Shown: in pieces, positions 9,689-40,383 of the stretch
Position numbering within the stretch: position 1 is the stretch's first letter
How the letters are laid out: each line of letters opens with the position of its first letter
NCBI GenBank assembly: GCA_023384455.1
Contig: JAHDWH010000002.1
Coordinates: 1 to 64,000, forward strand
Origin: Caldilineaceae bacterium
Lineage (GTDB): Bacteria; Chloroflexota; Anaerolineae; Caldilineales; Caldilineaceae
DNA: 64,000 nucleotides
Direction of reading: 5' to 3'
The notes under the pieces: generated by a model
Database searches by the model: none
The model's input: the letters and a program-made list of their open reading frames with translations, nothing else
Told to the model about the DNA's origin: nothing
Translations under genes and position numbers: made by a program

Positions 9689-9760
9689 CGAAAAACCTGC
9701 GCTTCCTGCGTGAAATGAGTCAAAAAAATTCTGTACAGATACTGTCTGTCCGTCTGTCAG

Positions 9761-9808
9761 AAACGTGAAACGTGAGATCGTCCGAGTGCTCTCACGTTTC
9801 ACGTATCA
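9761..9808. repeat. ACGTTTCACG hairpin element, nuoJ-nuoH gap
   Basis: Inverted repeat built of GAAACGTGAAACGTGAGATC and a complementary TCTCACGTTTCACG arm. This is the first of six similar hairpins in the window (others at 13167, 32265, 35465, 40325 and 48832), all in gaps between genes. Confidence 0.65.
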
Positions 9809-9818
9809 CTCGCCATCT

Positions 9819-13133: not shown

Positions 13134-13166
13134 ACCAGAAATGGCGACTGTCCGAATTTAGCCGTC

Positions 13167-13228
13167 GAAGCGTGAAACGTGAAACGTGAGAGCATTCGAT
13201 GAAATTCACGTTTCACGCGTCACGCTTC
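13167..13228. repeat. ACGTTTCACG hairpin element, nuoB-nuoCD gap
   Basis: GAAGCGTGAAACGTGAAACG faces TTCACGTTTCACGCGTCACGC across a short loop. It fills most of the gap between nuoB and nuoCD and lies just upstream of the nuoCD start. Confidence 0.65.
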
Positions 13229-25153: not shown

Positions 25154-27046
25154 ATGCTCGACTACGCCTGGCTTATCTTCGCCTTCCCTGCTGCGGGCGC
25201 GCTGATCAATCTATTCTTCGGCCCCCGACTGAGCAAAAACGCCATCGGCTGGATCGCATCCGGCGCGGTGATCGGTGCCTTCGCCGTGGCTGTGGGGCTG
25301 CTCTTCAGCCTGCTGGGGATGGACCCCCACCACCGGCAAGCTACCGTCCATCTGTGGGACTGGATCGACATCGGCAACTTCCACGCACCGGCCGCGATGC
25401 TCATCGACAGCCTGAGCGTGACAATGGCCCTGGTCGTTACCGGCGTGGGCGCGTTGATTCATCTCTACGCCACGGGCTATATGCAACACGAGGAACGCTT
25501 CCAGCGCTTCTTCGTCTACCTGAATTTCTTCGTCTTCGCGATGCTGATTTTGATCCTCAGCGACAACTTCCTGGGGATGTTCGTGGGCTGGGAAGGGGTC
25601 GGTCTGGCCTCCTACCTGCTCATCGGCTTCTACTTTGACAAAGAGGACAGCACCTACGGCTCCTATGCGGATGCGGGCAAGAAGGCTTTTATCGTCAACC
25701 GCATCGGCGACTTTGGGATGATGCTGGCGATGATGGCTCTCTGGACAAGCCTGGGCACGATTACTTTCGAAGGTGTATTTGCCAACGCAAGCCAACTGAG
25801 CGCGGGGGTTGCGACTGGGGTTACGCTGCTGCTGCTTTTGGCGGCCACAGGCAAAAGCGCGCAACTGCCCCTCTTCGTCTGGCTGCCCGATGCGATGGCT
25901 GGCCCGACGCCGGTCTCTGCCCTGATCCACGCGGCCACAATGGTTACAGCGGGCGTCTATATGATTGCCCGTACCCACGTCCTCTTTGCCCTGGCCCCCA
26001 ATGTGATGGCGACGACGGCCTGGGTGGGCGTGCTGACTGCCTTACTGGGCGCGTCGATTGCCCTGGTGCAGACCGACCTGAAGAAGATTCTCGCCTACTC
26101 CACCATCTCCCAGTTGGGCTATATGATTCTGGGTGTGGGCGTGGGCGCGTATGCCTTTGCCATCTTCCATCTGGTCACCCACGCCTTCTTCAAGGCCCTG
26201 CTCTTCCTGAGCGCGGGCAATGTGATGCACGGGTTGCCCGGCGGGGAGCTGAACATTAACAAAATGGGCAACCTGCGGGAGAAGATGCCGACGACCTACA
26301 AATTGTTCGCCATCGGCGCTCTGGCCCTGGCCGGTTTCCCGCTGACCTCCGGCTTCTTTTCCAAGGATGCCATTCTGCTTTCGACCTTTGACAGCAATCT
26401 GCTACTCTATATTCTGGGGCTGTTCACCGCACTGCTCACGGCTTTCTACAGTTTCCGGGCGGTCTTTGTGGCCTTCTGGGGCAAGCAGCGGGACAAGCAC
26501 GTCTTCGACCACGCCCACGAGAGCCACGGGGTGATGACGACGCCCCTGTGGATTCTGGCCGGTCTGGCGCTGATCGGCGGTCTGCTCAATCTGCCCTTTG
26601 TCCTCACGCTGGAACACTGGCTGGAAGAAGCGGTCGGCCCGGCCACATTCCACCCGTCGGTGGGCTTGGAAATTGGCCTGTTGCTGGTGAGCGCGTTGGT
26701 TTCGGTCGCCGGTATTGGTCTGGCCTATGGCCGCTACGTGCAGGACGCGGCCTGGGCCAAGCGCATCACGAATGTCTTCAAGCCCCTGGAATCCCTGGCC
26801 CAACACAAGTGGTATATCGACGAATTGTATATGGCTGCCATCGTCGAACCCCTGCGCGTCCTGGCCGCCTTCTTCGCCGGGATCATCGACCAGCGGGCTA
26901 TCGACGGCTCGGTCAATCTGCTGGGCACAGCCCACCTGGCCGCGGGCAATCTGCTGCGCCGGGTCCACAACGGGCTGGTTCCGACGTATGCGCTGAGTCT
27001 TTTTGTGGGTGTGGTGGCGGTGCTGTTGTATTTTGTGTTTGTGTAA
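25154..27046 (+). CDS. nuoL: NADH-quinone oxidoreductase subunit L, cluster 2
   Basis: A 630-residue antiporter-like subunit with MFVGWEGVGLASYLLIGFYF, GKSAQLPLFVWLPDAMAGP and [19 protein letters not shown] and the lateral-helix C-terminus. Compared with the cluster 1 NuoL it lacks the histidine-rich loop and is of standard length. Its last 14 codons plus stop (27002-27046) recur at 29624-29668 with three silent changes, on the far side of two inserted genes. Directly after the stop there is a short MRP... reading frame that resembles the start of the HEPN gene at 29677. Confidence 0.96.
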   Translation: MLDYAWLIFAFPAAGALINLFFGPRLSKNAIGWIASGAVIGAFAVAVGLLFSLLGMDPHHRQATVHLWDWIDIGNFHAPAAMLIDSLSVTMALVVTGVGALIHLYATGYMQHEERFQRFFVYLNFFVFAMLILILSDNFLGMFVGWEGVGLASYLLIGFYFDKEDSTYGSYADAGKKAFIVNRIGDFGMMLAMMALWTSLGTITFEGVFANASQLSAGVATGVTLLLLLAATGKSAQLPLFVWLPDAMAGPTPVSALIHAATMVTAGVYMIARTHVLFALAPNVMATTAWVGVLTALLGASIALVQTDLKKILAYSTISQLGYMILGVGVGAYAFAIFHLVTHAFFKALLFLSAGNVMHGLPGGELNINKMGNLREKMPTTYKLFAIGALALAGFPLTSGFFSKDAILLSTFDSNLLLYILGLFTALLTAFYSFRAVFVAFWGKQRDKHVFDHAHESHGVMTTPLWILAGLALIGGLLNLPFVLTLEHWLEEAVGPATFHPSVGLEIGLLLVSALVSVAGIGLAYGRYVQDAAWAKRITNVFKPLESLAQHKWYIDELYMAAIVEPLRVLAAFFAGIIDQRAIDGSVNLLGTAHLAAGNLLRRVHNGLVPTYALSLFVGVVAVLLYFVFV

Positions 27047-29623: not shown

Positions 29624-29668
29624 TTTGTAGGTGTGGTGGCAGTGCTGTTGTATTTTGTGTTTGTGTAG
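29624..29668 (+). repeat. Second copy of the nuoL 3' end
   Basis: Fourteen codons plus stop, FVGVVAVLLYFVFV, identical in protein to the end of nuoL at 27002-27046. Three bases differ (GTG/GTA, GCG/GCA and TAA/TAG), all silent. It has no start of its own. It is followed after eight bases by the HEPN gene start, with AGGGGA as ribosome-binding site. Confidence 0.85.
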
Positions 29669-32371: not shown

Positions 32372-33808
32372 ATGAATACGTCCGCACTCTTTGAAAACCT
32401 TTCCGTCCTTCTGCCCGAAATCGTCCTGATTGTGGGCGCGATGATTGTGATGATGGCCGACATTGCCCGGCGCAAGCAGAACGACCCGGGCATTCTGCCC
32501 GGTCTCTCTCTGGTCACGCTGCTGGTGAGTCTGGGCGCGGCTGTCTACATCTGGAATCAGCCCACCGCCGAGTATATGGCCGGCGCAACCTCCGACGCCT
32601 TTTCCCTGGGCGTGCGGCTGGTGGTGGGGATTGCGGCTATCTTTGGCGTACTCCTCAGCGGCGACTATCTGCCCATCATCCGCAAACAGAGCGGCGAGTA
32701 CTACTCCCTGCTGTTGCTGGCCGCCAGCGGGATGATGCTGATGGGCAGCGCCACGGACCTGATTGTCCTCTTCATTGCGCTGGAAATCTTCTCCCTGGGC
32801 CTCTACATTCTCAGCGGCTTCTACCGGGAGAACCCCCGCAGCACCGAAGCGGCGATGAAGTATTTTCTGCTGGGGGCCTTTGCCAGCAGCTTCTTTGTCT
32901 ACGGCGCGGCCCTGCTCTACGGCGCGGGGGGCAGCACGAACTACGCGGCCATCGGCGCGGCGCTGAGCAGCGGCGCGGGCAATCTCGGCCTGGCCCTGCC
33001 CGGTATCGCCCTGCTGGTGGTGGGTTTCGGCTTCAAAGTCAGCCTCGTCCCCTTCCATATGTGGACGCCGGACGTCTACCAGGGCGCGCCCACACCGGTC
33101 ACGGCTTTTATGAGTGTGGGCACAAAGGCAGCGGCCTTTGCCGGTTTTATCCGGGTGTTGCTGATTGCCCTGCCCAGCCTGCAACCCCAGTGGGGAATAG
33201 CCCTGGCCGTGCTGGCTGTTGTCACAATGACGGTGGGCAATTTGACCGCCCTGCGCCAGACGAGCATCAAACGGATGCTGGCCTATTCCAGCGTAGCCCA
33301 CGCCGGTTATCTGCTGGTGGGGATTGTCCCCGGTACGACGGAAGGCAGCAGTGCGGCTCTCTTCTATCTCTTTGCCTATGCTTTTATGAATATCGGCGCT
33401 TTCGCGGTGGCGATTGCGATGGAGAAGGCGGGCGAGGGCGACGTTGACCAGAGCCGTCTGGCCGGTGTGTCAGCCCGCTATCCGATGCTGGCCCTGGCAA
33501 TGGCGATTTTTATGCTCAGCCTGGCAGGTATCCCACCCCTGGCCGGTTTCTTCGGCAAGTTCTTCCTCTTCAAAGCCGCGGTGGATGGGGGCTGGGCCTG
33601 GCTGGTGGCTGTGGGCGTGCTCAACAGCGCCATCAGCGCCTACTACTACCTGCGGGTGACGGTCACAATGTACTTCAGCGACGCCACCGAAGTGGTCGAG
33701 CGGCGGGTCTGGGCAGGCCTCAACGCCAGCGTCGTCATCGCCGCGGTGGCGACGGTCGTCATCGGCCTCTATCCCAGCGTGTGGACGGGGCTGCTGGGTG
33801 GGTTGTAG
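32372..33808 (+). CDS. nuoN: NADH-quinone oxidoreductase subunit N, cluster 2
   Basis: The start is ATG 32372 (MNTSALFENLSVLLPEIV); the longer ORF reads through the hairpin repeat. The 478-residue protein shows GFGFKVSLVPFHMWTPDVYQG and TSIKRMLAYSSVAHAGYLL. It is the last complex I gene of the operon and ends before a strong terminator. Its final 37 codons plus stop (33695-33808) occur a second time at 34721-34834. Confidence 0.95.
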   Translation: MNTSALFENLSVLLPEIVLIVGAMIVMMADIARRKQNDPGILPGLSLVTLLVSLGAAVYIWNQPTAEYMAGATSDAFSLGVRLVVGIAAIFGVLLSGDYLPIIRKQSGEYYSLLLLAASGMMLMGSATDLIVLFIALEIFSLGLYILSGFYRENPRSTEAAMKYFLLGAFASSFFVYGAALLYGAGGSTNYAAIGAALSSGAGNLGLALPGIALLVVGFGFKVSLVPFHMWTPDVYQGAPTPVTAFMSVGTKAAAFAGFIRVLLIALPSLQPQWGIALAVLAVVTMTVGNLTALRQTSIKRMLAYSSVAHAGYLLVGIVPGTTEGSSAALFYLFAYAFMNIGAFAVAIAMEKAGEGDVDQSRLAGVSARYPMLALAMAIFMLSLAGIPPLAGFFGKFFLFKAAVDGGWAWLVAVGVLNSAISAYYYLRVTVTMYFSDATEVVERRVWAGLNASVVIAAVATVVIGLYPSVWTGLLGGL

Positions 33809-33827
33809 ACTCCCCTCGTCTGCCGAA

Positions 33828-33870
33828 AGAAAGGGCCACCGGTCTTTGACCGGTGGCCCTTTCTTTTTAT
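33828..33870 (+). terminator. Intrinsic terminator after nuoN
   Basis: Stem AAAGAAAGGGCCACCGGTC, loop TTT, perfect complement, then a run of T. A textbook rho-independent terminator 20 bases after the nuoN stop. It also serves the convergent YgiT-type gene. Confidence 0.9.
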
Positions 33871-33912
33871 CTCAACTCCATTGCTTTTGGTCGCGATAGG
33901 TGGGAGTCGGCT

Positions 33913-34158
33913 TCAGTTCAATGCTGGATTTGCCTGCGCGGGTCGAAAAAGTGGAGCGGAAAAGTGACCTGCTGGCTCGACTAGACCACTGAGTACTTTC
34001 TCCACAGTACGAGCCGAGCTTAGGGGCATCGACTCACAGCCACATTCGGGGCAGATATTCATCAGCAGATCGCGTATCACAATCGGCGCGCCTTGCCGGT
34101 AAAAGATGCGTTCCACATAAACTGATTTCATTTCGACAGAACAACCATTTGGGCACAT
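33913..34158 (-). CDS. YgiT-type zinc-finger (MqsA-like) protein
   Basis: The start is at ATG 34158 (MCPNGCSVEMKSVYV) because GTAGGAG precedes it at the right distance. The 81-residue protein has a zinc-finger-like set, a CxxxC variant (CPNGC) and CPECGCES, as in the N-terminal half of MqsA/YgiT-type antitoxins. No helix-turn-helix domain follows. It is encoded just downstream of a DUF4258 protein, giving a toxin-antitoxin-like pair between nuoN and the second nuoN 3' end. Confidence 0.75.
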   Translation of the reverse strand: MCPNGCSVEMKSVYVERIFYRQGAPIVIRDLLMNICPECGCESMPLSSARTVEKVLSGLVEPAGHFSAPLFRPAQANPALN

Positions 34159-34178
34159 TTTCTCAACTCCTACAGCGC

Positions 34179-34436
34179 TCATCTCCGATTGGCCGTAATA
34201 ATAAAGGCCGGGGAACAATCTTTCACAGTCACTGTGATCCGCCGCCTCCGAAGCGTGTACTTGCTGTACCTGCCGCCTGAGCGAGGGTCGGATTCTTTCT
34301 TCGTTACTGTTCCGTGCAGAATCACGTCGAGCACCTGGTCAATCGAAATGCCATTCTCAAACATACGCTCCACAAGATGTGGTCCGAAAGAGATCGACTC
34401 CGAATAGACATCGCTTCGAATCTGTTCAATGGACAT
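34179..34436 (-). CDS. DUF4258 family, RelE-like putative toxin
   Basis: An 85-residue protein: FGPHLVERMFENGISIDQVLDVI, then a basic, arginine-rich beta region (GGRYSKYTLRRRRITVTVKD). DUF4258 proteins are small RelE/ParE-fold-like proteins that commonly pair with a YgiT-type zinc-finger gene, as here. A promoter (TTGAAC, 18 bases, TACAAT) lies just upstream, so the pair runs opposite to the nuo operon and has its own control. Confidence 0.75.
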   Translation of the reverse strand: MSIEQIRSDVYSESISFGPHLVERMFENGISIDQVLDVILHGTVTKKESDPRSGGRYSKYTLRRRRITVTVKDCSPAFIITANRR

Positions 34437-34476
34437 AGAGTGAGTCCGTTGAGGGCTTTCTGAGTTGTCGAGGATA

Positions 34477-34506
34477 ATTGTACTACATCTATATTTCCGA
34501 GTTCAA
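34477..34506 (-). promoter_or_regulatory. Promoter of the DUF4258/YgiT pair
   Basis: On the minus strand TTGAAC at 34501-34506, an 18-base spacer and TACAAT at 34477-34482; the DUF4258 start codon is about 40 bases downstream. The remaining part of the 460-base gap to the right holds a 42-codon frame beginning at 34512 that I cannot assign, and the nuoN 3' copy. Confidence 0.6.
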
Positions 34507-34720
34507 GCTGGATGGCTACCGAACGGCTGCTGTTTATTGCCTATAGCCCGGAATTTGGAACGTTGACTACCGGCTTTCGTATCACAGATCGGCAAAATGT
34601 GATCGACGCCAATTGGACAGCAGTAGTTCGACAACGTTAGCTGCTCTGGTCGGTGTTGAGATGCATCCCTTACCTGCATAAAAGACTAGCACGGCTGTTG
34701 CGCGCAAAGCCTGCCAGCCG

Positions 34721-34834
34721 GTCGAGCGCCGGATCTGGACAGGGCTGAACGCCAGCGTCGTCATCGCCGCGGTGGCGACGGTCGTCATCGGGCTGTACCC
34801 CAGCGTGTGGACGGGTCTGCTGGGCGGGTTGTAA
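34721..34834 (+). pseudogene. Second copy of the nuoN 3' end
   Basis: A total of 37 codons plus stop that match nuoN 33695-33808: ASVVIAAVATVVIGLYPSVW is identical. By eye 11 of 114 bases differ, 8 of them silent within codons, one in the stop (TAG/TAA), and two that change an amino acid (V to I, A to T). It has no start codon or upstream part and is followed by its own strong terminator at 34857. The excess of silent changes shows that this stretch diverged while it was still part of a working nuoN. Confidence 0.85.
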
Positions 34835-34856
34835 AGGGTAGCTACTTTCTTAAAAC

Positions 34857-34898
34857 AAAAGACCTGCCAGGTTTTCCGAAACCTGGCAGGTCTTTTTT
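34857..34898. terminator. Intrinsic terminator after the nuoN 3' copy
   Basis: AAAAGACCTGCCAGGTTT, loop TCCG, complement, run of T. It is symmetrical and also serves the convergent HD-domain gene. It was probably the original terminator of the nuo operon before the DUF4258 block was inserted. Confidence 0.85.
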
Positions 34899-35430
34899 AT
34901 CTCCCATACCCCCCAATCTTCCCCCCCAGCCGCGCCGCCAGCCAGCCATCCGCCTCGCCCAGGCTGGACAGAATCACCTGCGCCTCGGCCCCATAGGCGG
35001 CGATTTTGGCCGGGTCCCAATCGTGGGGCGGCGGCTGCAAGTTTGTGATGCGATCCGCCAGTTTCACCATCCACACTTCCCGCGGCTGCTGGCGGATGCG
35101 GGCCAGGCTGTCGGCCATCTGTGCGGATTTGCTGGGCAGCGTCGTATCTTTCGTCAGCGCCAGCACCCCATCCGCCACCGCTACACCGAACCGCTCCGCC
35201 ACATCCCCATAGCTGGCGGGCGTATCCTCGATAACGTCGTGGAGCAGCGCACACTGCACGGCCAGGTTCGGGTCAGCCACCCGGCTACTCTGGGCCAGGG
35301 CCGTCATCACTTCCATCGCCACCGCGCCGATGTGTGTCAAATACGGTAATTCCGTGCCCGGCACTTTCTGGCTGCCGTGCATCGCCGCCGCATAGTGCCA
35401 CGCGGCCAGATAAAGATCGGGTGACCACAT
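34897..35430 (-). CDS. HD-domain protein, MESH1/SpoT-hydrolase-like
   Basis: A 177-residue single-domain protein with HD-type metal ligands: H in YLTHIG, the HD pair in CALLHDVIEDT, and a later aspartate in MVKLADRITNLQPP. This pattern is that of the (p)ppGpp hydrolase domain of RelA/SpoT and of small alarmone hydrolases. No synthetase domain is present. ATG 35430 is preferred, five bases after GGAGG. It could degrade (p)ppGpp or NADPH-like metabolites; activity is inferred from the motif only. Confidence 0.75.
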   Translation of the reverse strand: MWSPDLYLAAWHYAAAMHGSQKVPGTELPYLTHIGAVAMEVMTALAQSSRVADPNLAVQCALLHDVIEDTPASYGDVAERFGVAVADGVLALTKDTTLPSKSAQMADSLARIRQQPREVWMVKLADRITNLQPPPHDWDPAKIAAYGAEAQVILSSLGEADGWLAARLGGKIGGYGR

Positions 35431-35464
35431 ACACACCTCCGCCGGATTGCCGATTTGTCGGGCA

Positions 35465-35519
35465 GAAACGTGAAACGTGAGATCATTCGGATCCTCTCAC
35501 GTTTCACGCCTCACATTTC
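35465..35519. repeat. ACGTTTCACG hairpin element, HD gene - isomerase gap
   Basis: GAAACGTGAAACGTGAGATC faces TCTCACGTTTCACGCCTCAC. Fourth of six copies. Confidence 0.65.
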
Positions 35520-40296: not shown

Positions 40297-40324
40297 CGGT
40301 AGCCGATTCTATTTCTTCCGGGCG

Positions 40325-40383
40325 GAAACGGGAGGCGTGATTCGTGAGATCGCCCGGCCTTTTTCACGTTTCACGTTTCACGT
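40325..40383. repeat. ACGTTTCACG hairpin element, GIY-YIG - MFS gap
   Basis: GGCGTGATTCGTGAGATCGCC then TTTTCACGTTTCACGTTTCACG. Fifth of six copies; it lies just past the MFS stop codon. Confidence 0.6.

Follow-up and report, generated by a model that had tools for sequence, protein, structure and literature searches.

Replacement of a gene's 3' end by an incoming one, with the old end left downstream and mostly silent differences between the two, is familiar from prophage e14 at the icd gene of Escherichia coli, where integration proceeds by an integrase and a fixed core. In homology-facilitated illegitimate recombination (HFIR), homology joins the incoming DNA at one end only and insertions lie near conserved anchors; it has been described in Acinetobacter baylyi, Streptococcus pneumoniae and Pseudomonas stutzeri (PMC3240628, PMC2884548). 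In competent species HFIR surpasses purely illegitimate recombination in efficiency by a factor of 100 to 100,000 (PMC2884548); in E. coli conjugation it is rare, at 3e-10 per recipient (PMC3240628). For the arrays of orphan immunity genes of the Vibrio type VI secretion system (T6SS), HFIR with an upstream anchor has been proposed by the authors; the conserved upstream anchor is kept, new cargo is placed beside it and older material is displaced downstream (PMC5361080).

What, then, is seen at the nuoN locus of the 64,000-nucleotide stretch of a Caldilineaceae genome analysed here (the window)? Its scar, in which a nuoN end recurs behind a small block of foreign cargo, is like the HFIR products in being joined by homology at one end only, beside a conserved anchor, and like the Vibrio arrays in its upstream anchor, adjacent new cargo and displaced older material. 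While HFIR is known mainly from experiments (PMC3240628, PMC2884548), the window case is read from a natural scar that retains both gene ends, in an uncultured member of the Chloroflexota. The Vibrio arrays displace mainly immunity genes that may still be protective, whereas the window displaces a useless gene end, and its anchor, unlike theirs, is a gene of respiration that has no relation to the cargo (PMC5361080). We read the locus as an insertion hotspot, bounded by nuoN and an HD-domain gene, in which two haplotypes were joined by HFIR anchored in nuoN, plausibly after natural transformation, and assign this reading a probability of roughly two in three.

The repeated nuoN end

The window genome (G000) is a 6.77-Mb assembly in 448 contigs. 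It was compared with six congeners (G001 to G006), five of which provided a close nuoN; among named relatives, those nearest to it are metagenome-assembled genomes entered under Caldilineaceae, Anaerolineae or Litorilinea aerophila. The features of the locus, in window coordinates, are the following.

32373..33808, plus strand: nuoN, NADH-quinone oxidoreductase subunit N, intact (open reading frame; start at 32373 read from the sequence)
33695..33808, plus strand: copy 1, the nuoN 3' end in use (114-bp repeat, 91% identical to 34721-34834)
33826..33867, plus strand: terminator t1, 19-bp perfect stem and T-run (-35.6 kcal/mol; unlike the nuoN 3' region of relatives)
33913..34158, minus strand: YgiT/MqsA-type zinc-finger ORF, putative antitoxin (two CxxC-like motifs and neighbour pattern; exact start inferred)
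34179..34436, minus strand: DUF4258 protein of 85 aa, putative toxin of the RelE/ParE superfamily (PF14076, 33.8 bits, cut-off 25; alignment)
34512..34640, plus strand: decayed 3' end of gene X, last 42 codons (74-78% amino acid identity to the X C-terminus; 80.5% nucleotide identity over 118 bp)
34641..34681, plus strand: probable decayed 3' end of gene Y (AALVGVEMHPLPA, then stop; order and frame as in the Y end of G004, AVLAGVEFRPQPG, then stop)
34720..34721, no strand: junction of the two haplotypes (nuoN homology begins here; up to 7 bp, GGTCGAG, common with the intact nuoN context)
34721..34834, plus strand: copy 2, displaced nuoN 3' end without a start (repeat; downstream contiguity as in the G005 empty site)
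34857..34898, plus strand: terminator t2, perfect hairpin and T-run (-29.8 kcal/mol; resembles the nuoN terminators of G004 and G005)
34897..35436, minus strand: HD-domain gene (PF13328, 43.2 bits; boundary of the interval in every congener readable there, five genomes)

A sequence-only reading of the window had reported that the end of nuoN recurs with 11 differences, nine of them silent, that the second copy has no start and that each copy is followed by its own terminator, and our analysis agrees on all of these points. The 114-bp alignment of the copies is gapless; the silent differences include the stop codon (TAG versus TAA), V to I and A to T are the only replacements, and the similarity breaks off sharply at both borders. 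The repeat was also found independently, and when 3' ends are scanned against the 8 kb downstream of them it has an E-value of about 2e-43. In the alignment of the window, copy 2 is preceded by no nuoN sequence and by no start of its own, and both t1 and t2 are perfect hairpins followed by T-runs, although these plus-strand hairpins are missing from the list of a simple scanner. On the left side of the block nuoN is continuous, its C-terminal 169 residues sharing 88-99% protein identity with nuoN of five congeners; on the right, the cargo abuts the interior of nuoN with homology of no more than about 7 bp. As a separate observation, the t2 hairpin has about 30 near-identical copies across the genome and is possibly a dispersed repeat serving as a terminator; another dispersed repeat, with GAAACGTGA...TCACGTTTC palindromes, lies between genes at 9752-9809, 13166-13223, 35457-35514 and 40324-40381.

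With 11 differences, the two copies have diverged about as much as the nuoN ends of separate species in the genus, pairs of which, excluding the more distant G003, differ at 10-20 of 114 positions. Under neutral change, nine or more silent differences among 11 would be expected with P = 6e-4. Two shorter scars at nuoL, described below, differ at silent positions only, and pooling all three yields 15 of 17 silent (P = 1.4e-6). This bias lends good support to the earlier proposal that both nuoN ends evolved under coding constraint before they were joined. At the two residues replaced in copy 2 the changed base is shared with the working nuoN of G005, so these replacements need not represent decay. 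A separate ancestry of the copies had also been suggested, and in a free tree of the 114-bp ends they do separate; an AU test, however, is compatible with their grouping (p = 0.14), and as 114 bp are too few, the tree does not assign them to lineages. The sliding identity of nuoN to the congeners is flat, and since all of these are about equally distant, no boundary of a donor tract is visible within the gene.

A variable interval between nuoN and the HD gene

In G005, nuoN, terminator and HD gene are contiguous with a gap of 67 bp, and window positions 34722-35431, comprising copy 2, t2 and the HD gene, align to it unbroken. This is the empty site that the sequence-only reading had suggested looking for in relatives. 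All five genomes that show the interval have nuoN and the HD gene on its flanks and a different content in between: the gap measures 67 bp in G005, 1095 bp in the window, 1106 bp in G006, 1152 bp in G004 and 11174 bp in G001. The cargo is a HEPN/nucleotidyltransferase pair in G006 (the frame of its HEPN gene, L042:1344-1734, is broken by an in-frame TAG) and genes X and Y in G004, where no repeat of the nuoN end is present. The right-hand joint differs as well, lying inside nuoN in G000, inside the terminator in G004, and between the nuoN stop and the terminator in G006. The nuoN-HD interval is an insertion hotspot in this genus; in ten other genomes of the family that we examined, no HD gene was found near nuoN.

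The window joins two haplotypes of this interval, with nuoN (copy 1), terminator, DUF4258/YgiT pair and the remains of X and Y on the left, and copy 2, terminator and HD gene on the right. The block had previously been taken for an import that brought the second nuoN end with it. Import from another lineage remains our view, but as copy 2, t2 and HD match the empty layout of G005, the second end looks more like the displaced resident one, and the block would have come with copy 1, a choice of donor side that we infer from this match.

The pair itself is putatively a toxin-antitoxin system with the toxin gene first. Its second ORF, with the motifs CPNGC and CPECG, has no match in Pfam, NCBIfam or PADLOC; its motifs, and the fact that 12 of the 20 other DUF4258 loci examined in G000 and congeners have a zinc-finger neighbour of like kind, point to a putative YgiT/MqsA type. 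Some of these loci lack the zinc-finger partner. The toxin-antitoxin-like pair noted by the sequence-only reading thus shows the PF14076 match and the adjacent zinc-finger motifs of such a putative system. The promoter of its own that it was given comes down to a weak match to -35 and -10 elements upstream of the pair (9 of 12 positions, minus strand 34506-34477), which is no evidence for a working promoter. DUF4258-MqsA systems of the RelE/ParE superfamily, fusions of the two included, have been listed, with the toxin preceding the zinc-finger antitoxin as in the window, although the usual DUF4258 order in the same table is antitoxin first; in contrast to those systems, the window pair concerns us as cargo only, and its DUF4258 copy is divergent (PMC11980606). 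It shares 9-27% identity with other DUF4258 proteins, and 60 relatives contain no close copy, while DUF4258 as such has 13 matches in G000, far above most of the family. Solved structures gave no meaningful match for either protein of the pair, and plasmids no close DNA or protein match to the block DNA, DUF4258 or X; viral contigs held no close match to X.

Between the pair and copy 2 lie the remains of two plus-strand genes that the earlier note overlooked. Gene X, whole in G004 between nuoN and the HD gene (L040:1655-2155), is found among 61 genomes only there and as the window relic, both times between nuoN and HD; some other Chloroflexota genomes contain several distant relatives of it, about 30% identical. 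The stretch that follows it is probably the end of gene Y: its alignment score to the Y end of G004 is 35, a value attained by 2 of 500 shuffles. X and Y (L040:1655-2596 in G004) belong to no family in Pfam, NCBIfam or PADLOC, and could together be an undescribed two-gene module. Outward from nuoN, the order is thus the toxin pair with t1, cut X, cut Y, the old nuoN end, t2 and HD, and the position of the X and Y relics between pair and copy 2 suggests at least two layers of insertion.

Scars at nuoL and the origin of the junction

Two further scars were found at nuoL, which belongs to the same operon as nuoN. In the window, the last 44 bp of the gene (27003-27046) recur at 29625-29668 after a cassette with a SpoIID domain; in G005, about 42 bp are repeated around a hairpin-rich insert of 107 bp in the nuoL-nuoM spacer (L045/L041, G005:C14), a site that is empty in G001, where nuoL directly adjoins nuoM. 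The copies differ at three positions in each case, all silent and including the stop codon, and the starting points of the two scars lie no more than about 5 bp apart. Both window copies of the nuoL end precede CGATGCGTCC, which on the right opens a HEPN gene and on the left is perhaps a remnant of one. In a survey of 969 ORF ends in 1.17 Mb, a sample of this genome and its relatives, these and the nuoN scar were the only three real cases, all in nuo genes, so that no genome-wide habit of such scars was seen in this sample. The remaining matches, as far as inspected, came from tandem paralogues or from dispersed repeats overlain by spurious ORFs. Neither is the scar a property of the toxin-antitoxin pair, as none of 20 other DUF4258 loci shows a comparable flanking repeat of a gene end; it belongs to the nuoN-HD locus. 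The three scars have three different starts, in nuoN and nuoL, and no core motif in common at them.

HFIR, the best-supported mechanism, would account for this arrangement as follows. A related lineage would have supplied DNA with a nuoN end, terminator, DUF4258/YgiT pair, X and Y; this DNA would have paired with the resident chromosome through nuoN, and illegitimate recombination would have joined its other end at a point 114 bp ahead of the resident nuoN stop. In this process nuoN would have stayed intact because the incoming DNA supplied its end, while the resident end, together with its terminator and the HD gene, was moved downstream to be left as copy 2, t2 and HD. The layering suggests that X and Y arrived first and the toxin pair later, cutting X; this number of events we infer from it. 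The differing right-hand joints of G000, G004 and G006 are expected under HFIR, because homology fixes the left side only. As to the route of entry, all five genomes tested contain ComEC, and four of them give a full-strength match to DprA; in G000 no good DprA match was found, perhaps owing to an assembly gap, and none of the five has Ku. Judged from these genes, uptake by transformation is plausible. Counting against HFIR, besides its rarity in E. coli conjugation, the tree that leaves the copies unassigned, the flat identity profile of nuoN and the DprA result in G000, are two further points: conspecific strains are absent, so that neither parent haplotype is seen whole, and the close starts of the nuoL scars in G000 and G005 are not what random joints would predict.

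The best surviving alternative, though an unlikely one, is that a circular molecule, for instance a donor fragment with nuoN end and cargo that had recircularised, was integrated by a single (Campbell) crossover. It yields the identical order of hybrid nuoN end, cargo, second nuoN end and resident downstream DNA, and for linear DNA in E. coli, ligation followed by single-crossover integration is commoner than HFIR (PMC3240628). However, the homology available would be only the 114 bp of nuoN, or about 42-44 bp at nuoL, at 5-9% divergence, which makes poor RecA substrates, whereas HFIR can anchor in the whole upstream gene; and the presence of X and Y in G004 with a different right-hand joint would be left unexplained.

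Considerably less probable is a site-specific element that replaces the 3' end of its target gene in the manner of e14, its integrase having been lost or acting in trans. The architecture is indeed alike, with a hybrid gene end, cargo and a displaced end differing mostly at silent positions, and the neighbouring starts of the nuoL scars speak for it. Yet e14 has an integrase and a fixed core, neither of which was found in the window scars: in ORF listing and profile searches no ORF of the block matches a recombinase or integrase, and the starts lack a common core. Also opposed to it are the unrelated cargo of the three scars, the presence of X and Y between nuoN and HD in G004, where no repeat accompanies them, and the lack of repeats at the other DUF4258 loci. 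We consider an assembly chimera of two metagenome strains just as improbable. It draws some credit from the fragmented assembly with an estimated contamination of 6%, from the metagenomic origin of the named congeners, and from the two sides, which do resemble two haplotypes; but the roughly 7 bp common at the joint are too short for a k-mer join, the X and Y relics show real decay, and like scars occur in the separate assembly of G005 and twice in the window contig. Fainter still is the prospect of an unrecognised integration system that acts in trans and inserts small unrelated cargo at nuo 3' ends, each with a replacement gene end. Finally, the idea that the nuoN end was duplicated locally and the copies then diverged, for which their 1-kb distance and common strand might speak, can practically be dismissed, as a silent relic should have gained replacement changes rather than nine silent ones among 11, copy 2 carries alleles of working genes of other species, and the 3' regions of the two copies differ.

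A legible scar of probable one-sided insertion

The window scar reveals no new principle, but it clearly illustrates, in a natural setting, a form of recombination that was already known. Bacteria are believed to owe a large share of their small variable DNA to one-sided homologous insertion, the products of which are not easily identified. At this locus they are readable through the almost exclusively silent differences between the gene ends, the empty site of a relative and the layered cargo. This provides a search signature, the last 40-150 bp of a gene repeated downstream with silent differences, that could be counted in any set of genomes. The locus also suggests that toxin-antitoxin pairs can enter conserved operons without carrying a recombinase of their own.
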